From assembly GCA_017481575.1 (NCBI GenBank), contig JAFUPA010000065.1, forward strand, positions 48,424 through 112,423: 64,000 bases of DNA. Direction: 5' to 3'. The position numbers were made by a program, and so were the translations under genes. Below are positions 15,936 to 33,232 of the stretch, one piece after another. This stretch comes from Clostridia bacterium (GTDB taxonomy: Bacteria; Bacillota; Clostridia; Oscillospirales; Acutalibacteraceae). Under the pieces are notes generated by a model that saw only the letters and a list, made by a program, of their open reading frames with translations, had not been told where the DNA came from and made no database searches. Within the stretch, counting starts at the first letter, position 1. The number at the start of each line of letters is the position of its first letter.

Positions 15936-18900
15936 TTATTCAACTGTGTACTCTACTGTACCAGCGTCTGTCCATACACCTGCAACCTTGATCTGAACCT
16001 TAACGATATTCAAACCGTCATTGTTCATCCAAGCATTACCTGTAAACATAAGGTCACCGTTAGCAAGAACATATGCCTTGTCTGCAGAGTAAGTTGTTGT
16101 TGTGTTGTTGTCCATTACGAATCTGATAGCCTGAGCATCAGGACCTGTGATAACTACTGTTGAAACAGCGCCCTTCTTACCTGATGTAGCTGCCGGTCCG
16201 ATTGAACGAACTGATGCATCATATGTGGGTTCAAGAACTTCAACTGTGAAGTTGTATGTCTCTGTCTCCCAGATGTATGATGTGCCTGACAAGTACTTAG
16301 CACGAGCCTTTACGTCAGGACCGATGAGGTTAGTTGTGATTGTCCATACTTCGTATGCAACTGAACGATCAAGTGAGTTAACTTCTACGCCGTCTGCGTT
16401 GTAGCTAACGATTGTAACGTTCTTGTTGTATCTGTCGTATGTTCTTGTACCGCCGTCTTTCTCGATGAACTGGATCATAGCGGGTCTGTCTTCAACTGAA
16501 ACTGTGAATGTGTTATGAGTATCCTCTGAAGGAGTCCAGTTAATTGTCATGATCTTTGACTTAACTTCCTTCTCCTTAAGACCTGCGATAGCATCTGTGA
16601 TAGCCTTAGTTGCTGCGTCGATAACAGACTGTGATGACTCACCAAGGTTTCTGTCAACTGCTCTACCAGCTGCAACTGCATCTGCAAGAACTGAGTATGT
16701 CTCTTCTGACCATACGTTCGGGTCGTAGCCGTCGCCTTCTGCGATAGCTGCGTCGAGAGCTGTGTAGTCAGCCTTCTTCTCAAGAGCTGCGATAGCGTCT
16801 GTGATAGCCTTTGCTGCATCATCAACGATAGCCTGATCAGCTACAAGGAGATCTCTTGCTACTGCGTTACCAGCTGCAACTGCATCTGTAAGAGCTGTGT
16901 ATGAAACTACTGTGTAATCAGCAGCTGCATAGTTAGCTGCATCTGCGATAGCTGCATCGAGAGCTGTGTAATCAGCATAATCGATAACTACTTCTTCAAG
17001 GTTATCAAGAGCTGTGTTGATAGCTTCTGCATAAGCATCAACCTGTGCCTGATAGTTTTCGTTAAGATCCCAGTCAACTGCGTCAACTGCTGCCTTAACT
17101 GCTGCATATGATTCAGGAGTATACTTTGTTTCGTCGAGAGCTTCGAACTCTGCCTGAGCTGCTTCAACTTCTGTGTAGTCAGCTGCTGCTGCTGCGTCAA
17201 CTGTAACCTTCAAGAACTGAATCTCCTGAAGCTTTGCCTTTGCATACTGCTCGTGTGTGTAATCCCAAACGAGAGCTTCCTTCTTAGCAAGGTATGCTGC
17301 GTATGAATCTGCATTGTAGTAATCAACGGGGTTAGCTTCGATAGCTGCGATATGATCGTTGATTGCTGTGTAGTCGTATGCTCTGTAAACAGGAGCATCG
17401 AGGAGAGCGTTGATAGCTGTTGCATAGCCGTCAACTGTTGCCTGATCCTTCTTCTTAAGACCTTCAACAACTGCCTCAACTGCTGCATTTACTTCTGCAA
17501 TCCACTCGTCTGCATAACGAAGTGTGCCTTCGTCATTTTCAGCAACCTTAGCCTGAGCTGCTGTGATTGCTGTGTTAACTGCTGTGTAGTCAGCGTCTGC
17601 TTCAACAAGAGCACCGAGAGCTGTTGTAAGAGCTGTCTCTGCCTCGTCGATTGTTGCCTGATCCTCTGATGTGAGGTCACGTGCAACTGCTTCTGCTGCT
17701 GCAAGAGCTGTTTCAACTGCTGCATAAGAATCTGTTGTGTAGTGATCAGCTACGAGAGCCTTTGCGGTCTCGATAGCCTTATCAAGAGCTGAATAGTCAG
17801 CGCCTGTTGCGGGAACAAGAGCTGTGATAGCATCATTAAGAGCTGTAGCTGCTGCATCGATGATGCCCTGGTCTGAATACTTGAGACCTTCTGCTACTGC
17901 GCAAGCTTCGTCATAAGCAGCCTTTGCATTTGCATAAGAAGCCTTTGTCCAATCTGCTTCGTTAAGAGCTACGAAAGCGTCCTTAGCTGCTGTAAGAGCT
18001 GTGTAGTCAGCATCCTTTTCTGTGAGGCCTGCGTGAGAGTTTGTGAGCTCTGCAAGAGCGTTTGTGATGTCATCCTGTGATGTAGCAGTCTTGTTATCAA
18101 CCATGTTCTGTGCAAAAGCAAGAGCATTGTTGAAGCGACCTGCTGTATCAACTGTATAGATTGATGTGTCTGTGTCCTTAACTTCGTTTACCTTTGCTTC
18201 AAGAGCTGAATAGTCAAGGTTAGGAGCAAGGTTGTCAATAGCTGTTGCAAGAGCTGTAGCTGCTGCATCGATTGTGCCCTGCTGTGAAGCACCAAGGCCT
18301 TCTTCGATAGCTGATGCTGTTGCATAAGCTTCTTCTACTGCTGCCCATGTGTCTGTTGTCCAGTCAGCAGAATTAAGAGTTGCATACTCTGCAAGAGCTT
18401 CGTTAAGAGCTGTGTAATCAGCAAGGTTCTCAACTGCTGCGATAGCTTCGTCAAGAGTTGTGATCATAGATGTAACGTCGTCCTGTGAAGAAGCTGTCTG
18501 ACCGTCAACCATAGCCTGAGCTGCTGTGATAGCTGCTGCAAGAGCGTCTGCAGAAGCTGTTGTAGCATTTGATGTGTCAACTGCCTTAGCTTCAGTAATC
18601 TTTGCTTCAAGAGCTGAATAGTCGATTGTTGTTGTTTCGCCGGGGATAACAAGTGTAAGAGTAGCTTCTGAAAGATCCCAATAGAGATATTCGTCGCCAT
18701 ACTTCATGTTCGGGTTAAGTGATGACTGTGTGTCAACAACTTCGCAAGGCTCTTCACAGTCTGCGCAAACACCGTTTTCGTAAAGTCTGAGAGCACCCTT
18801 CGGCTTAGCTTCTCTCTGCTCTGTTCCTTCAGGAATAGTAACATAGAATGTGTCGCCAGGCTGTGCATCTTCAGGAACCTTAAGAGTCATCATGATAAGA

Positions 18901-19520
18901 TGATTGTCTGTATCTTCCCAAATATTTGTCCAACCTGAGTTTTCTGAAACGAGGTTGTTCAAACGGTTGAACTTCCACTCTTCCATATTGAAGAGGTTGT
19001 TACCCTCATCATCTGTCGGCCAGTTCTGCTCAACGTCAGCGTTGAAAGTGTCATTCTGGTATGTCCAGAAGTTCTGAGCTGAGTAAGATGTACCCTGAGC
19101 TGCTGCCCATTCATTGTTTGTGTTCCAGATATGAATCTTTTTCTGGTTAGCTGCTGAGAATGATGATGCTGAAGGTCTCTGTACGAAATAATCTTCATAA
19201 CCATCAATAAGCTCTGCTGAATAGAAAAGGTTTGCCTGGAATGTGTGGACGTAATAGTCATTTGTTGCATAAAGACGAACGAAAACATGGTCGCCGGGCT
19301 GTACTTCAAGAGTACCACCAGCTTCTGATTCATCGCCTTCTGTGATAGTTACTTTTGCATTTGATGACCAAACAGCTGAACCAGCTGAACCTGTAAGCCA
19401 AACCTTAGCATGGTGTGTGGCTGTATCAGGATCACCGTTAGCTGAACCAACAACTGCGAAAGCGCTGAGTGCGAGTACCATTGCAAGTACAACACTCAAA
19501 ACTTTTTTTGCGAGTTTCAT
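15936..19520 (-). CDS. Exported protein with cohesin-like candidate domain, ten FIVAR-type repeats and two Ig-like domains
   Basis: A 1,194-aa secreted protein. The signal peptide is residues 1-27 (KKVLSVVLAMVLALSAFAVVGSA). Residues about 30-290 form a beta-rich domain (VQPGDHVFVRLYATND, then LKVPEDAQPGDTFYVTIPEG). I read it as cohesin-like, with low certainty. Ten repeats of about 65-75 aa follow, each opening DYxAL/V and carrying the FIVAR pattern with Gln-x-x-Asp-x-A and AI-x-x-L, to about residue 1000. Two Ig-like domains end the protein. No catalytic motif, LPxTG or S-layer motif is visible. The FIVAR array is probably a rigid helical stalk. AGGAGG lies 8 nt before the ATG. It is the last gene of the three-gene locus. 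Confidence 0.85.
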   Translation of the reverse strand: MKLAKKVLSVVLAMVLALSAFAVVGSANGDPDTATHHAKVWLTGSAGSAVWSSNAKVTITEGDESEAGGTLEVQPGDHVFVRLYATNDYYVHTFQANLFYSAELIDGYEDYFVQRPSASSFSAANQKKIHIWNTNNEWAAAQGTSYSAQNFWTYQNDTFNADVEQNWPTDDEGNNLFNMEEWKFNRLNNLVSENSGWTNIWEDTDNHLIMMTLKVPEDAQPGDTFYVTIPEGTEQREAKPKGALRLYENGVCADCEEPCEVVDTQSSLNPNMKYGDEYLYWDLSEATLTLVIPGETTTIDYSALEAKITEAKAVDTSNATTASADALAAAITAAQAMVDGQTASSQDDVTSMITTLDEAIAAVENLADYTALNEALAEYATLNSADWTTDTWAAVEEAYATASAIEEGLGASQQGTIDAAATALATAIDNLAPNLDYSALEAKVNEVKDTDTSIYTVDTAGRFNNALAFAQNMVDNKTATSQDDITNALAELTNSHAGLTEKDADYTALTAAKDAFVALNEADWTKASYANAKAAYDEACAVAEGLKYSDQGIIDAAATALNDAITALVPATGADYSALDKAIETAKALVADHYTTDSYAAVETALAAAEAVARDLTSEDQATIDEAETALTTALGALVEADADYTAVNTAITAAQAKVAENDEGTLRYADEWIAEVNAAVEAVVEGLKKKDQATVDGYATAINALLDAPVYRAYDYTAINDHIAAIEANPVDYYNADSYAAYLAKKEALVWDYTHEQYAKAKLQEIQFLKVTVDAAAAADYTEVEAAQAEFEALDETKYTPESYAAVKAAVDAVDWDLNENYQAQVDAYAEAINTALDNLEEVVIDYADYTALDAAIADAANYAAADYTVVSYTALTDAVAAGNAVARDLLVADQAIVDDAAKAITDAIAALEKKADYTALDAAIAEGDGYDPNVWSEETYSVLADAVAAGRAVDRNLGESSQSVIDAATKAITDAIAGLKEKEVKSKIMTINWTPSEDTHNTFTVSVEDRPAMIQFIEKDGGTRTYDRYNKNVTIVSYNADGVEVNSLDRSVAYEVWTITTNLIGPDVKARAKYLSGTSYIWETETYNFTVEVLEPTYDASVRSIGPAATSGKKGAVSTVVITGPDAQAIRFVMDNNTTTTYSADKAYVLANGDLMFTGNAWMNNDGLNIVKVQIKVAGVWTDAGTVEYTVE

Positions 19521-19570
19521 TGAATAATCCTCCTAAATTAATATTACCAAATAATCAGTCTTTCGGCTAA

Positions 19571-20647
19571 TTAGTATGGATTAGATTGATCAATAACGAC
19601 TGAACCTGAAGTAACTGCGAGATAACTCGGCAAGTCACCGATATCAACTAAGCCGTCGTTTGACAGGTCACCTGCAAAGATGACAACTGCATCTTCACAA
19701 GTTGTAGAACCGCTTGCATAGCTGATGACATGTGTCAGGTCATTATTATCAACAAGTGCATCACCGTTGATATCACCGAAGATGATAAGGTTATAACTCT
19801 TGACAGTAACAGCATCAATCTGGAGATTGATAACTGTGCCTGTGCCATAACCAAATTCTGCCGGTGCTGAACGGATAACTGCATCACCAGTCGCTGTTAC
19901 GTACTCTTTAATGTCAGAATTACTTGCAATACCTTCATTAAAGCCGTAAACACGACGGTTATCTTCATCAACTGTAGCGGGTGTGCCGTAGTCTTCGTTG
20001 GGAACCAAGGCAACCTGCTCACCAACTACCATTGCATTTGCAGGAACAAATGTCATAGCACATGTAGTTGAATCGAGATAATAGAATGTTGTTGCATCTG
20101 CAGGATTTTCAATAGCCTGATAGTAGAACAAGTCGGACTCTTCGGGAATGAAGATTGTACCTGTTTTACCAACTGCAGATGACTTTGTTTTAAGCTCGAA
20201 GGTGAAAGCGAGTTCACCGGCTTCGTTATTGATGTGACCAACCTCACCGTTTGCAGCAGAAGCTGTCCACTGAACAAGAACACAACCAAAAGCGGATGAG
20301 TCGTAAGCATCAGGGATATACTGTGCGGTGTCCACTGTGTTTGAGCTGATTGTACCTGATGAAGCACAGGTATTATAGCCTGTAAGACCGATGATTGTAG
20401 GAAGCTCATAAACTGTTGAGTCGAACATTATCGGGAAGCGGAAAGACGGAACATTGTAGTTACAAGCGATTGTAACACGAACCTGCACAGCAGTTTCTGC
20501 TTCATATGTTTCGTTATCCGTTGTGATTGTTACTGTCATTGCTTCTGTTCCTGTAGGAGTGCCGGCAGCTGATGCGCTGACAGCAAATATGGAACAAGCA
20601 AGAGTTACAGCAAGAAGAATAGCAAGAATTTTCTTTGAAATTTTCAC
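19571..20647 (-). CDS. Exported protein with cohesin-like domain and C-terminal type I dockerin
   Basis: A 358-aa protein with a signal peptide (residues 1-27, ILAILLAVTLACSIFAVSASA). Residues about 35-195 match the cohesin pattern: VQVRVTIACNYNVPSFRFPIMF, a YDSTVYEL-like strand and GELAFTFELKTKSSA. An X/Ig-like module (RRVYGFNEGIASNSDIKEYV, ending SYNLIIF) precedes the dockerin at 292-358. The two calcium loops are DINGDALVDNND and DLSNDGLVDIGD. Having both modules makes it a small scaffoldin or adaptor candidate. The start is GTG at 20647, with GGAGGAG 6 nt upstream. It lies 50 bp before the FIVAR gene. Confidence 0.85.
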   Translation of the reverse strand: MKISKKILAILLAVTLACSIFAVSASAAGTPTGTEAMTVTITTDNETYEAETAVQVRVTIACNYNVPSFRFPIMFDSTVYELPTIIGLTGYNTCASSGTISSNTVDTAQYIPDAYDSSAFGCVLVQWTASAANGEVGHINNEAGELAFTFELKTKSSAVGKTGTIFIPEESDLFYYQAIENPADATTFYYLDSTTCAMTFVPANAMVVGEQVALVPNEDYGTPATVDEDNRRVYGFNEGIASNSDIKEYVTATGDAVIRSAPAEFGYGTGTVINLQIDAVTVKSYNLIIFGDINGDALVDNNDLTHVISYASGSTTCEDAVVIFAGDLSNDGLVDIGDLPSYLAVTSGSVVIDQSNPY

Positions 20648-20705
20648 TTTATACTCCTCCTGTTCATCTTTTTATATACGGCATAGAGCTGACCTCTCGC
20701 CGTTA

Positions 20706-20735
20706 TTTCCTCAGAGGCTTTCGCCTCCGAGGAAA
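20706..20735 (-). other. Intercistronic hairpin with GNRA tetraloop
   Basis: A stem of 12 pairs with one A-C mismatch; on the minus strand it closes on GAAA. It lies in the 116-bp gap between the 1,361-aa dockerin gene and the cohesin-dockerin gene. No U-run follows, so it is more likely a processing or stability element that lets the genes be expressed unequally. Confidence 0.6.
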
Positions 20736-20763
20736 TTATTATTTGGTTTGAGTGAAATATTAA

Positions 20764-23700
20764 TTATGCGATTTCACGTGTTTCGTAGTTAACAACTACT
20801 GAACCTGCAGCAACTGCAAGGTAGCTACTGAGGTCTGATGTATCGATAGCACCATCAAAGTTAACGTCGCCAGCTGCCAAGCCAAGGTCTGACGGAACAT
20901 CAGAACCTGCTGTGAATACAAGAACCTGGCTAACCTCAGATGTATCTGTCATACCGTCACCTGTGATGTCAGTGTAAACAGCTACTGTGTATGCTGCAAG
21001 AACTGAATCATCAGCTTCGCTCTTGACTGTAACAACAGCGCCTGTTGAATAATAGCCGCCTTCGTTTTCAGTTACTTCAACGTAGCAACCTGAGCATACG
21101 AAGTAATCTGCCAAGTCGTTATCAGGGTTGATACCTGTGATGAAGAGTTCACCTGTTTCAACGCCTTCTACAAGCACAACTGTCTCTGTGAATTCGTAAG
21201 AAGCTTCGTCACCGCCAACGTCGCCGCCCTCTGTAGGAGCAACAAGTCTCTTCTCTGCCTCGAGAAGCTCACGATATGCTGTCTTAACCTTTGTCGGGTT
21301 AGAAGCGTCATCGTTTACTGTTGATGTAGCAAAGTTAACTGCCTTCTGGTAGTTGTCCCAAGACTCTGTTGAGTATTCGGAAGAATCACCGATTGTACGA
21401 GTCGGGTTAGCAAGCTCTCTCTCAAGGTGAGTCTTAACTGCATCCCTTGGAAGAAGTCTGCCGTAGTAGAGTGAGAATCTGTGCTCGTTGTAAGCCTTTG
21501 TAAGCTCGTTAACAACTGCAACTTCACCTGTCTCTTCGTCAGGAATTGTTGCTGCATCAATCATGCCCTGGAGTGTTCTCAACTCGTCACGGAAGTTGTA
21601 GTATGTATATGCTACATAGTCAGAAACGCCCAAATGAACGTATGAAGGATCGTCATAGCTGAGGTCTTCCGGATTTGACGGGAAGCACTTGTCGATGAGT
21701 GCCTGTGAAGACTCAACACCAGCTGAAAGAACCTGTGCTTCAAGCTCTTCGATAGCAGCTGTAAGGTTGTTGAATGCGGGCTCGTAAAGACGAGCTTTAC
21801 CCTTGATTGTACCAAGTGCGAATGTACCGTTACGGCATGTGCTGTAAACTGCCTTTGCAGCCTGCTGCATTGCTACAACATAAGCTTCCCAAACTGACAA
21901 GCCTGCGAATATATCAGTCTTTGTTGTATCCAACGGGTCGATATAAGACAATGTTGTATCTGCTGTAGCATAAGCTGACTGCTGACGGTGCTTGCCCATT
22001 TCGCTCTCAAGGAGACCCGGGAGACCGAAGTCGTTGTAGAGATAGATACGAGCCGCTGTGTTCTTAAGTGTTGTTGAACCAACTGTTGCACCTAAGGTGT
22101 AAGAAATCGTCGGGTAACGAGAAACCAAACCTGTTGTTGCGTTATACATTGTGTTATTTTCGATCATTGAAAGCCAAGCAGCATCCTTCTCTTCGCCTGT
22201 GAGAGCGTCGTATGCTTCTGTCTCTTCAAATACCTTTACGTTACCGATACCTGCTGTATCGTCAACCTGCTGCATAATTGTAGCAGCTTCTGTGACAAGC
22301 TGAAGGTAGCAAGTGTCGTCTGTTGTAACGAGTGACTCGAGTGCCTTAAGAACGTACGGAACTGCTGTTGCCTCTGCAGCGTTAGTGTTCTGAACAGTAA
22401 CTGTGATGTCTGTCAAATCGCCAAAGCTGTTAGCATAGAGGTAACGAGGACCGTCGGTGATTGAGTAACCGCCTGAAGCTGTTGATGTAAGCTTTGTCTC
22501 GTTATCAGGAGCTTCGTTGTAAGCAATGTATGAATACATTGTCTCTGTGATAGGAGCATCTGTAAGCGGTGAGCCGTCCTCTGTAAGAACGTCATAAGTG
22601 ATTGTTACAACGAACGGTGTTGATGCTGAAACTGAACCTGTGAAGGAGAATTCAGCTGTCTGACCACCGGCGATTGTGTCCGGATATGTAGCAGAAATTG
22701 CTGCAATGTTTGTTGTAACTGACTGGATATCGTATGTGTAGAGGCTATCCTGATGGAACACGCCGTTAGCATCTGTATAACCAGTGTTGATACCTGTTGA
22801 ACCGTTACGAACCATAAGCTTAAGAGCGATGGAGCCAGCGGTGCTGATTGAGTTACCGTCAACGTTTGCGTCTGTCGGATCCCAGTTAAGCTCGGGGAAC
22901 TCGAATTCCTGAGCGTTTGTGAGGTCGAGGATGCTACAAATAACAGGAAGGATTGCCTGTGCAAGGTTCTCTCTGTATGTGTAGAGATCTGTGAAGATCA
23001 TATCTACTGTACTTGCAAGAGCAGCGTTTGTAACAAGAGCATCGAGAGATGTACTAGCCTTGAAAGCACCCGGGAAGATGATGTTTACAATTCTAGTAAC
23101 AAGGTTGATGATTACCTGCTTCGGAGTCTTCTGAAGTTCTGAATCTGAACGATACTCGAACATTGCGAAGAGTGAATCGAAGTCAAGGTCTGCAATTGCG
23201 TCAACGAGAGTGAAGATGAATGTCTTCATGCTGCCGTTAGCAACTGTGGGAAGCCAGTTTTCAGGAATGATTGAGAAGATAACCTTATCGATTGTTTCCC
23301 AACCTGTAGCGTTTTCATCGAATGTGATACCGTTGAGAACGCCTGAATAGTTATCTACTGCGTAGTCAGCAGCCTTCTTGAGCTGAGCGTCAACGCCTTC
23401 CATATCGTATACGAACTCAAGGCCCATATCGATCTCTGCGCTTACAGCGTGGATAGCATAGTTGATACCCAAGATTACGATAGAATCTGTGCTGTTGGGA
23501 TCAAGATTTGAAAGGTCAAGCTCCGGAACGTCAGTTGCAAGTACCTGCTGAAGAGCAAGGAATGCGAACTCACGGATTGTTGATGTTTCGGGAACATACA
23601 TACCGTATGCTGAGCTATTGATGATAGCGCGAATTGCATAAATAACAAGTTCTTCATCACCCATAGCTTCGATCTCTTCTGCAGAAGCCAACTCAATGTA

Positions 23701-24849
23701 ATCTGCGAAGAGTTCATCACCTGCTGTGATAAGGAGTTCCTTAGCAACGTTTACAAGGTTCGGCTTGAGCTGTGACTGGTCGCCAGCTTCCCAAACCAAA
23801 ACTTCAGGATTGATGATTGCATCAAAGATTGACTTGATGATGTTGTTGCCCTGTGAAATGAATGTTCCGTCTGTGAACTCATATGCAGGAACTTCATAGT
23901 CAACATTGAGAATGTTTGCATACTCGTTAAGGTTTGAATAATCAAGTGTGTATGTGCCGTCGCCGTTGTCAATGTACTCAACGCCGCAGAACTTCTTGAT
24001 TGTCTCGCCGAGATCTTCGTTGATGATAGGAATAAGAATCTCGTTGTAGAGAACCTTGATGACGTTATCAAGGAAAGTATAAGCTGTACCTGTTGAGATG
24101 TTTGTCTTGCCTTCAAGAGCAGGAACAAGACCCTCAACATGCTCGATTGTGCCGTCATCGTTTTCCTCATCATAACCTGTAACAACATACTTGTCGATAA
24201 GGTCCTGAGCCATTGTGTCAACAGAAGAAGCAACTACCTGCTCGTCTGTACCTTCAACGCCGTAAGCAAACTCATAAAGCATACCCTTAAGGAGCTTGTT
24301 TACATCCAAGAACTCACTAAGGTCGATAAGTGAGCTGAGGAGAGAACCAGTGTCGAGAGTACCTGCAACGAAGGAAGAAAGAAGATCCTTGTTGTCATAA
24401 AGGAACTGGAATACTGCGTAAAGGATGTCTGTGTCTGTTTTGCCTGCTGTACCTCTTCTTACGCCACCTGCTGATTCATATGCAAATGCTTCAACATTAA
24501 GGTTCTGAAGGTCACCGAGCATACCCTTCAATGATGAGAAGAGAGCACCGTGAACGATTGCGTAAACAGAGTCCATTGCTGCATCTACAGATGTGAGGTC
24601 GATGTCACCAACGATGATATCCTCACGTGTGAACTTGAGCTGCTCTTTTGTGAGCATACGGTCAATTTCATCCAACGCAGCTGATGCATACTGATCAGTT
24701 GTAAGAACAGCCTTATCAAGCTTATTATACTGATTGATAATAGCTGAATCCTTATAAGCTGTGTATGCAGCGTTTGCACCGATTACGAGTGTTGAACACA
24801 ACATTATCATTGCGAGAATAACACTCAAAAATCTTTTTGCATTACCCAT
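20764..24849 (-). CDS. Giant exported dockerin protein, unknown central domains
   Basis: A 1,361-aa protein with a signal peptide (RFLSVILAMIMLCSTLVIGANA). The first 650 residues are helical and Leu/Asp-rich and match no family I know. A beta-rich region follows (TVTVQNTNAAEATAVPY), then a helical stretch with one FIVAR-like unit (YSTESWDNYQKAVNFA, about residue 1180). An X/Ig-like module (FITGINPDNDLADYFVCSGC) and a dockerin (last 68 residues; loops DITGDGMTDTSE and DVNFDGAIDTSD) end it. The start at 24849 is set by GGAGGTG 9 nt upstream; the in-frame ATG at 24867 touches that site. No glycosidase or protease motif was seen. It is the first gene of the locus, behind a structured leader. Confidence 0.82.
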   Translation of the reverse strand: MGNAKRFLSVILAMIMLCSTLVIGANAAYTAYKDSAIINQYNKLDKAVLTTDQYASAALDEIDRMLTKEQLKFTREDIIVGDIDLTSVDAAMDSVYAIVHGALFSSLKGMLGDLQNLNVEAFAYESAGGVRRGTAGKTDTDILYAVFQFLYDNKDLLSSFVAGTLDTGSLLSSLIDLSEFLDVNKLLKGMLYEFAYGVEGTDEQVVASSVDTMAQDLIDKYVVTGYDEENDDGTIEHVEGLVPALEGKTNISTGTAYTFLDNVIKVLYNEILIPIINEDLGETIKKFCGVEYIDNGDGTYTLDYSNLNEYANILNVDYEVPAYEFTDGTFISQGNNIIKSIFDAIINPEVLVWEAGDQSQLKPNLVNVAKELLITAGDELFADYIELASAEEIEAMGDEELVIYAIRAIINSSAYGMYVPETSTIREFAFLALQQVLATDVPELDLSNLDPNSTDSIVILGINYAIHAVSAEIDMGLEFVYDMEGVDAQLKKAADYAVDNYSGVLNGITFDENATGWETIDKVIFSIIPENWLPTVANGSMKTFIFTLVDAIADLDFDSLFAMFEYRSDSELQKTPKQVIINLVTRIVNIIFPGAFKASTSLDALVTNAALASTVDMIFTDLYTYRENLAQAILPVICSILDLTNAQEFEFPELNWDPTDANVDGNSISTAGSIALKLMVRNGSTGINTGYTDANGVFHQDSLYTYDIQSVTTNIAAISATYPDTIAGGQTAEFSFTGSVSASTPFVVTITYDVLTEDGSPLTDAPITETMYSYIAYNEAPDNETKLTSTASGGYSITDGPRYLYANSFGDLTDITVTVQNTNAAEATAVPYVLKALESLVTTDDTCYLQLVTEAATIMQQVDDTAGIGNVKVFEETEAYDALTGEEKDAAWLSMIENNTMYNATTGLVSRYPTISYTLGATVGSTTLKNTAARIYLYNDFGLPGLLESEMGKHRQQSAYATADTTLSYIDPLDTTKTDIFAGLSVWEAYVVAMQQAAKAVYSTCRNGTFALGTIKGKARLYEPAFNNLTAAIEELEAQVLSAGVESSQALIDKCFPSNPEDLSYDDPSYVHLGVSDYVAYTYYNFRDELRTLQGMIDAATIPDEETGEVAVVNELTKAYNEHRFSLYYGRLLPRDAVKTHLERELANPTRTIGDSSEYSTESWDNYQKAVNFATSTVNDDASNPTKVKTAYRELLEAEKRLVAPTEGGDVGGDEASYEFTETVVLVEGVETGELFITGINPDNDLADYFVCSGCYVEVTENEGGYYSTGAVVTVKSEADDSVLAAYTVAVYTDITGDGMTDTSEVSQVLVFTAGSDVPSDLGLAAGDVNFDGAIDTSDLSSYLAVAAGSVVVNYETREIA

Positions 24850-24865
24850 TTTGGATTGCACCTCC

Positions 24866-25140
24866 ATTAAAATTTGATACTAGTAAATAGTATTGGTTTT
24901 TGCACGCTTTTAATCAGCTGTGCACCGCTGATGCGACATTATTACGTTGTGTAATCTCCCCTTTCGAATCGAACCGCCGCCCGCCACCTAAGCCTTCCCG
25001 CTCTTAGCAGCGTGCTTGGCTCGTGCCGATGGTCGCGATTACTGACGTCAATACGACGCAAGTTTAAACCAGACGGGTGTCACAGCATAGCGTTGCTGAC
25101 ATCAGGGCACAATAACCCTAATGACACCACTCTTATGGTT
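24866..25140 (-). ncRNA. Structured 5' leader RNA, riboswitch-like candidate
   Basis: Between the promoter and the dockerin gene lies a leader of about 290 nt, GC-rich against AT-rich flanks. Helices include a three-way junction closed by 25122-25128/25076-25082, with arms 25116-25121/25102-25107 and 25094-25098/25083-25087. Segment 24951-24956 can pair either with 25037-25042 or, as 24951-24955, with 24941-24945. These two states are mutually exclusive. Further hairpins are 24913-24918/24927-24932 and 24877-24882/24888-24893, the last just before the GGAGGTG site at 24859-24865. I do not recognise the class. Confidence 0.55.
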
Positions 25141-25146
25141 AGTTTA

Positions 25147-25175
25147 AATATAAACCATTCTGCGGTCAAAGTCAA
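25147..25175 (-). promoter_or_regulatory. SigA promoter of the exported dockerin locus
   Basis: Minus strand TTGACT (25170-25175), 17 nt, TATATT (25147-25152). Transcription would begin near 25140, directly at the structured leader. Confidence 0.75.
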
Positions 25176-32383: not shown

Positions 32384-33232
32384 ATGACAAAAACAGTTAA
32401 AAAAGTTTTTTGCACTTTGCTCGTTATCGGGGTTTTGCTAACTTCCTCAATCACGGCATTTGCCGCAACTGCAGGTGACGTAAACTCTGACAGCAAGGTA
32501 AACTCGACCGATGCTCTGTGCATTTTAAAGCACTCCGTGGGTCAGACACCGTCAGGCTTTAATAAAAGTAATGCAGATATGAACGCTGACGGTAAAATCA
32601 ACTCAACCGATGCTTTGATTGTGCTTAAAATAAGCGTCGGAATGACAGACACGGTAATGAGCAAGGAAGAGATTGTTAAGCTTTATAACGACGGTATCAA
32701 AAAGTCGTATGAGCAGAGCAAGTGTACTTTGGTTATTTCAACAGATGTTGATGTTACTGTTAACAAGTTTTTGATGGACGGACAGGAAGATCCTGAAATG
32801 AGCGATATGTTTGAAGACATATTGAACGATACCGAATACGAAGACGAAAAGTATACATTTTTTAAGGGCAAAACCATAAAAGGCGAAAAGGCAGAAGATG
32901 TGCTAGCTTCCACAGAGATTGACTCAAGCGAGGTTAAAAACGCAACTGTCGTTAAACACGGTGACGGATATAAACTTACATTCAACCTTGTTGCATACAC
33001 ACAGTCAGCAGACGATATGGTCGAAGATATGACAGGTATTGCATATTTTGAATATGCCACGATGGAATACCCAAAGACTGAAATAATTGCGGTTATTGAT
33101 TCGCAAGGCAGAATTTCTTCAATTGAAGCCACTATACCCTGCAATTTAAAAGCGTCAATGACAGAAGCTGAAATGCAGATGTATATGGATGTGAACCTTA
33201 CACAGACAAGTGCCTATACATTTTCATACTAA
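32384..33232 (+). CDS. Exported protein with N-terminal dockerin
   Basis: A 282-aa secreted protein. The signal peptide is residues 1-27 (VFCTLLVIGVLLTSSITAFA). A dockerin follows immediately at about residues 31-90, with loops DVNSDSKVNSTD and DMNADGKINSTD, each followed by ALxxLKxSVG. Positions 10-11 of both loops are Ser-Thr, unlike the two dockerins at 19.6-24.8 kb. Residues 95-282 form a domain I do not recognise (KLYNDGIKKSYEQSKCTLVI, then MEYPKTEIIAVIDSQGRISS), similar in style to two-strand lipoprotein folds. No lipobox. It has a strong promoter and its own terminator, so it is an independent and probably abundant product. Confidence 0.85.
   Translation: MTKTVKKVFCTLLVIGVLLTSSITAFAATAGDVNSDSKVNSTDALCILKHSVGQTPSGFNKSNADMNADGKINSTDALIVLKISVGMTDTVMSKEEIVKLYNDGIKKSYEQSKCTLVISTDVDVTVNKFLMDGQEDPEMSDMFEDILNDTEYEDEKYTFFKGKTIKGEKAEDVLASTEIDSSEVKNATVVKHGDGYKLTFNLVAYTQSADDMVEDMTGIAYFEYATMEYPKTEIIAVIDSQGRISSIEATIPCNLKASMTEAEMQMYMDVNLTQTSAYTFSY

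Follow-up and report, generated by a model that had tools for sequence, protein, structure and literature searches.

We analysed a window of 64,000 nucleotides from an uncultured Clostridia bacterium of the gut (assembly GCA_017481575.1, contig JAFUPA010000065.1, positions 48,424 to 112,423), in which three consecutive minus-strand genes encode exported proteins, here called GIA, COH and FIV. The three-gene cohesin/dockerin/FIVAR locus proposed from the letters of the window (the sequence-only reading) was confirmed by open reading frames (ORFs), Pfam searches, a structural model of COH and hhalign. The features of the locus, in window coordinates, were as follows.

20764..24867, minus strand: GIA gene, ORF for an exported protein of 1367 amino acids (aa)
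22888..24768, minus strand: GIA all-alpha N-terminal domain, residues 34-660
21448..22887, minus strand: GIA middle region, residues 661-1140; first part visible in the alignment, no family assigned, boundaries approximate
21232..21447, minus strand: GIA FIVAR module, about residues 1141-1212; Pfam FIVAR E 2.3e-6 (residues 1145-1208), just below the cut-off
21004..21204, minus strand: GIA X module, residues 1222-1288; ahead of the dockerin, as is the COH X module; boundaries by eye
20785..20979, minus strand: GIA dockerin, residues 1297-1361; COH-dockerin profile E 4.4e-12, Pfam Dockerin_1 below the cut-off
19571..20647, minus strand: COH gene, ORF of 358 aa, cohesin-X-dockerin
20012..20551, minus strand: COH cohesin, residues 33-212
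19796..20011, minus strand: COH X module, residues 213-284; beta strands in the model, boundaries approximate
19574..19789, minus strand: COH dockerin, residues 287-358; profile match to solved dockerins, E down to 1.2e-8
15936..19520, minus strand: FIV gene, ORF of 1194 aa; cohesin-like domain, FIVAR rod and C-terminal beta domains; Pfam FIVAR E 2.1e-12
18636..19433, minus strand: FIV cohesin-like domain, residues 30-295; hhalign 97.5% to the COH cohesin without signal peptide; putative receptor of both dockerins
16611..18623, minus strand: about ten FIVAR repeats, residues ~300-970; five stretches pass Pfam, ten were counted by eye in the translation
15942..16400, minus strand: FIV C-terminal domain, residues 1041-1193; beta by eye, candidate surface-retention domain

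The predicted COH model (pLDDT, predicted local distance difference test, 89.0) showed a cohesin fold at residues 31-210, as the sequence-only reading had expected of the beta domain of this protein. Its top two Foldseek matches were 4fl4 and 3kcp, which we take to be trimodular cohesin-X-dockerin (Coh-X-Doc) entries of CipA from Clostridium thermocellum with the module order of COH; identity was 14-15% and the root-mean-square deviation about 15 over the whole chain, indicating that the modules are placed differently. The Clostridium perfringens cohesins 2w1n, 2vo8 and 2jh2 were among the matches listed. The Pfam cohesin family PF00963 gave no hit in the COH protein of the window and reached E <= 0.1 in 6 of the 21 aligned COH members (best 6.9e-4). 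The COH dockerin, below the Pfam cut-off, showed two calcium-loop-like repeats by eye, matched 8x39_A (E 1.2e-8) and 2ccl_B (E 4.3e-8) in profile searches and was classed as type I-like.

The helical N-terminal domain of GIA had no match among the solved structures searched, which supported the earlier suggestion of a large domain without known fold. Profile searches found no cohesin or cohesin-like domain in GIA, and the COH X profile did not report the GIA X module of the window protein. No enzyme family was recognised in GIA by Pfam and profile searches, and these searches bore out the claim that the locus has no recognisable enzyme.

COH and FIV carried one cohesin or cohesin-like domain each, so that neither was a scaffoldin with several cohesins of the kind that marks a cellulosome. 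The C-terminal domain of FIV also terminated proteins encoded on five further contigs of this genome, including leucine-rich repeat (LRR) and DUF6273 proteins, and this recurrence at protein ends suggests that it may serve for retention at the envelope or surface. When anchors were looked for, two sortases were found encoded in the genome, and no sortase motif was seen by eye at the end of FIV. Proteins with the FIV-type terminal domain were recorded at L208:5620-7083, L209:9413-12835, L210:9906-13676 and L211:5829-9245 (make-up LRR_5, DUF6273 and two without Pfam match); two of these proteins started with signal-like sequences and the other two were truncated where the contig or stretch stopped.

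Scanning the contigs of the genomes yielded 37 loci, for which the animals named were deer, sheep, goat, cattle, yak and horse. The order GIA-COH-FIV on the same strand was recovered in 22 of them with profiles built from the same 37 loci; in locus L118 a FIV fragment had been recognised in earlier scans only, not in the profile-based one. COH was not next after GIA in 8/37 loci (L132 and L133, which encode the same protein, L135, L136, L137, L138, L141 and L142), and in 7/37 the contig was too short to be informative (L116, L122, L129, L131, L134, L139 and L140). In the divergent group L137-L142, GIA was followed, where the contig allowed, by a protein of about 1,700-1,900 aa, which in L137 had List-Bact (B-repeat) modules and no FIVAR hit. 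Of 150 genomes of the family, 20 had a GIA relative at E <= 1e-5, the window's own genome among them and some through the dockerin part alone. Matches occurred in 16 of the 18 genus genomes, the remaining two being 61% and 68% complete, and a class-wide draw gave 2/391, one being the window's own genome. One genome from another family of the class (L206, G523; 77% complete, 5% contaminated) had a strong GIA relative (E 4.4e-165), reflecting either transfer or contamination.

Contig 36 of the same genome (L091:3100-14227) held a second system of similar plan. It encoded a GIA paralogue, GIA2 (1214 aa, DGQDAV dockerin), followed by two further proteins. The first, of 1843 aa, had a divergent dockerin; the second, of 574 aa, combined a cohesin-like domain of the same kind (E 9e-8) with a domain that matched the C-terminal one of FIV more weakly (E 2.8e-7). 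GIA2 was present in 16/18 genus genomes. Large DG-x-DAV dockerin proteins with a common short hydrophobic tail after the dockerin, by eye, were also noted at L104:3-4421, L105:3225-5000 and L102:5475-10127.

The GIA and COH dockerins resembled each other within genomes (mean identity 0.41, versus 0.26 between genomes, 22 loci). The own partner ranked first in 15/22 comparisons from GIA to COH and in 16/22 from COH to GIA, values reached in none of 20,000 permutations. Covariation was evaluated over 18 of the 22 loci, L071, L118, L125 and L074 being dropped since their FIV domain or GIA was incomplete; linear partial Mantel tests were repeated with cubic and isotonic correction of the phylogenetic trend, because saturation might mimic covariation. 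After isotonic correction, r was 0.63 for the COH dockerin and the FIV domain, 0.51 for the GIA dockerin and the FIV domain and 0.44 for the two dockerins (p 0.0002 each), and the COH cohesin gave 0.02 and 0.07 with the two dockerins, neither significant.

Trees were compared for seven sister species, named here by their loci; L188, with one internal stop, was left out, and L191-L196 were not used for GIA2. A core tree of TruB, the GIA N-domain, the COH cohesin and the GIA2 N-domain recovered L130+L106+L108 and L176+L112 with full support and rejected L130+L176 (approximately unbiased test, p 4.6e-73). From TruB and GIA2 alone, L176+L112 was kept (support 100) and L130+L176 rejected (4e-6). 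The trees of FIV 30-295, the GIA dockerin and the COH dockerin shared two discordant groupings, L130+L176 (support 89, 99 and 82, respectively) and L107+L112 (100, 99 and 97), and each rejected the core clade L176+L112 (p 1.4e-5, 1.8e-5 and 0.002). The FIV domain and the GIA dockerin had an identical topology and both rejected L130+L106+L108 (p 0.001 and 0.0007). L130+L176 was rejected by the COH cohesin (p 0.002), the COH X module (0.018) and FIV 300-620 (0.02), the latter showing the core groupings with weak support. The COH cohesin and X module, located between the two dockerins, agreed with the core tree, as did the GIA2 dockerin plus X; the GIA middle region kept L176+L112 (support 98) and the GIA X tree was undecided.

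When L130 and L108 were compared in 300-base steps, DNA identity was 82-93% in the GIA N-domain, 57% in the step over the GIA dockerin, 90% in the COH cohesin, 78% in the COH dockerin and 66-79% in the FIV domain. The proportion of synonymous differences was 0.30 in the GIA N-domain, 0.80 in its dockerin, 0.28 in the COH cohesin, 0.65 in the COH dockerin and 0.51 in the FIV domain, and was also raised in GIA X (0.86) and the first part of the rod (0.58); these segments are short for such a comparison, with 46-49 synonymous sites per dockerin. As synonymous differences were raised too, point convergence was rejected as the source of the discordant groupings, which points to an exchange of older variants. 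Chimeric assembly was rejected by argument, since it should give contiguous blocks, yet the segments are separated by parts that follow the core tree.

Taken as a whole, the three genes probably specify a cell-surface assembly, closed and non-cellulosomal, that is joined by cohesin-dockerin contacts and in which the FIV cohesin would receive both dockerins; an extracellular assembly with a structural or adhesive role had already been put forward by the sequence-only reading, and a structural or surface assembly was supported as most likely. We infer that FIV may act as the receptor, presenting its N-terminal cohesin on the FIVAR rod and being held at the envelope by its C-terminal domains, and that the dockerins of GIA and COH would both plug into this cohesin. 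GIA would display its conserved all-alpha domain, and COH would be a Coh-Doc adaptor which re-presents its slowly evolving cohesin to a conserved further partner. The recognition code for the FIV cohesin would differ from species to species: if one domain receives both dockerins the three must change together, and since the code was seen only within the operon (in an incomplete genome) it might be replaced as a set. By this code the window species would fall into one group with L130 and L176, apart from L106/L108 and L107/L112.

Several observations weigh against this proposal. The tree argument rests on seven sister species, five of them metagenome-assembled genomes and two draft genomes, the clades L130+L176 and L107+L112 were named after the identity table was seen, and the core tree includes parts of the operon itself. 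TruB and GIA2 alone neither show nor reject L130+L106+L108 (p 0.29), and the COH dockerin alone does not reject it (p 0.14) and places the window species differently. FIV 30-130 alone was borderline (0.07 and 0.05), FIV 621-980 fitted neither tree (L112+L130, support 86), and FIV 30-295 is called cohesin-like from profiles, its matches to the solved cohesins 4n2o (E 0.065) and 4wkz (E 0.08) being weak and ranked behind two designed immunoglobulin-like chains. Identity between L130 and L108 also dipped in the GIA middle region (69%), the FIVAR/X region (71%) and the FIVAR rod (62-80%). Loci L123 and L125 showed no dockerin pairing. Control pairs covaried as well in the isotonic test (GIA dockerin with GIA X, 0.39, and with the GIA middle region, 0.33; GIA X with the FIV domain, 0.28), and the covariation of GIA X with COH X (0.45) finds no explanation in the proposed assembly. 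Finally, the covariation of the COH cohesin and COH dockerin was weakly significant in the linear (0.25, p 0.017) and cubic (0.23, p 0.0096) tests.

This weak covariation would suit an arrangement in which COH polymerises head to tail, each cohesin taking the dockerin of the next COH, with GIA capping the chain and FIV being a mere neighbour. The module order Coh-X-Doc and the likeness of the two dockerins of a genome are also compatible with it, and the dockerin of Ruminococcus flavefaciens ScaH was reported, in excerpts of that study, to recognise its own cohesin (PMC5301203). We consider such a chain unlikely, given that the tree of the COH cohesin agrees with the core tree and rejects the dockerin grouping, and that the covariation of this cohesin with the two dockerins is near zero after isotonic correction, although binding could still hinge on a small number of contact residues that do not vary. 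The pairing of the GIA dockerin with the COH cohesin, suggested by the sequence-only reading, was not favoured either, as both dockerins covaried and grouped more with the FIV cohesin-like domain. It is also doubtful, in our opinion, that the N-terminal domain of GIA is a new extracellular enzyme and the locus a one-enzyme, cellulosome-like unit: 13 residues, some of them polar, are invariant across 31 aligned sequences (Q59, D66, D69, D145, W359, N370 and W538 among the invariant positions) and known folds gave no match, but no enzyme family was recognised and invariance by itself is no proof of catalysis.

The wider genome changed the sequence-only reading in part. It holds a Pfam-level cohesin, accompanied by LRR and a dockerin in a 593-aa protein of contig 43, and a 274-aa protein gave a weaker cohesin hit. 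Dockerin hits at E <= 1 numbered 28, of which 24 passed the cut-off and those of GIA and COH did not, but the two dockerins of the locus have motifs of their own. GIA and COH could then be ordinary members of this network, binding the contig 43 cohesins or the contig 36 574-aa protein. Among 26 dockerin hits read by eye, however, NS-x-DAL occurred in at least one repeat in 19 and DG-x-D-x-V in five, and the other two, GIA and COH, had neither motif; one of the remaining two hits overlapped a read hit and the other, with a different motif, lay in the 1843-aa protein. Moreover, DGQD, a motif shared with unlinked proteins, was fixed in the GIA2 dockerin of 7/7 sisters, though the dockerin as a whole was 54-86% identical. 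Ordinary membership thus appears improbable. In the 24 further dockerin proteins Pfam recognised, besides other domains, GH25, phage-type lysozyme, C39-like peptidases, CotH, LRR_5, F5/8 type C and DUF4474. It detected no glycosidase for plant fibre among them in this genome, which is 72.9% complete.

Upstream of GIA the gene context varied between groups and no functional clue was found; a GH94-type protein of 2427 aa was encoded there in L123 (L123:2204-9487), and long ORFs of similar size in L117, L120, L121 and L125. Elsewhere in the window (32384-33232), an exported 282-aa protein carried at its N terminus an NSTDAL-type dockerin, a strong match in Pfam (E 7e-15), and a remainder without known family, and tandem relatives of it were observed in the sister loci L107 and L108.

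CipA, matched by the COH model, has many cohesins and carries cellulases. C. perfringens has FIVAR-dockerin pairs, with non-cellulosomal Coh-Doc pairing and a FIVAR module adjoining the dockerin. The locus resembles this species in its putative Coh-Doc pairing outside the cellulosome; there the modules are on recognised glycosidases (according to the titles of the matched structures), whereas here a long FIVAR rod is on the cohesin-bearing protein and no enzyme was recognised. The nearest precedent is ScaC of R. flavefaciens, described in excerpts of PMC3197198 as a Coh-Doc adaptor scaffoldin of the cellulosome gene cluster, with a conserved cohesin and a second dockerin repeat that varies between types. 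Like COH, it is a small Coh-Doc protein with a cohesin less variable than its dockerin, but only its second repeat is reported there as variable, whereas both vary in COH; unlike in that cluster, no enzyme was recognised here and the COH dockerin changes with a second dockerin and the cohesin-like domain of a third gene. The mucinolysome of Limousia also comes from a gut bacterium without a specialisation in cellulose and is a cellulosome-like system, there with complexes specialised in mucin degradation; its contact residues are not highly conserved between two species, the authors suggest species-specific contacts, and the word FIVAR is absent from the main text (PMC12997984, in part). Among the literature matches listed, most subscription papers being outside the scope, no paper was found that describes a receptor operon with a FIVAR rod or cohesin and dockerin specificities exchanged in a coordinated way.

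Cohesin-dockerin pairs are known chiefly as the glue of cellulosomes. Here the same glue would serve an operon in which no enzyme was recognised. Its specificity seems to be exchanged between species in sets of three parts, and the cargo of the assembly would be a conserved domain without solved-structure match in these searches. More speculatively, and with little confidence on our part, the operon could be a polymorphic self-recognition locus, in which two dockerins and one cohesin are exchanged between species as a matched set and assembly on a cell surface is restricted to parts of one type; if this were true, bacteria would have a counterpart of recognition loci that are linked and co-inherited, and the conserved helical domain of GIA would be the displayed effector. 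The sister species offer ready cognate and non-cognate pairs for studying the evolution of such specificity, and might also supply new orthogonal pairs for assembling proteins.

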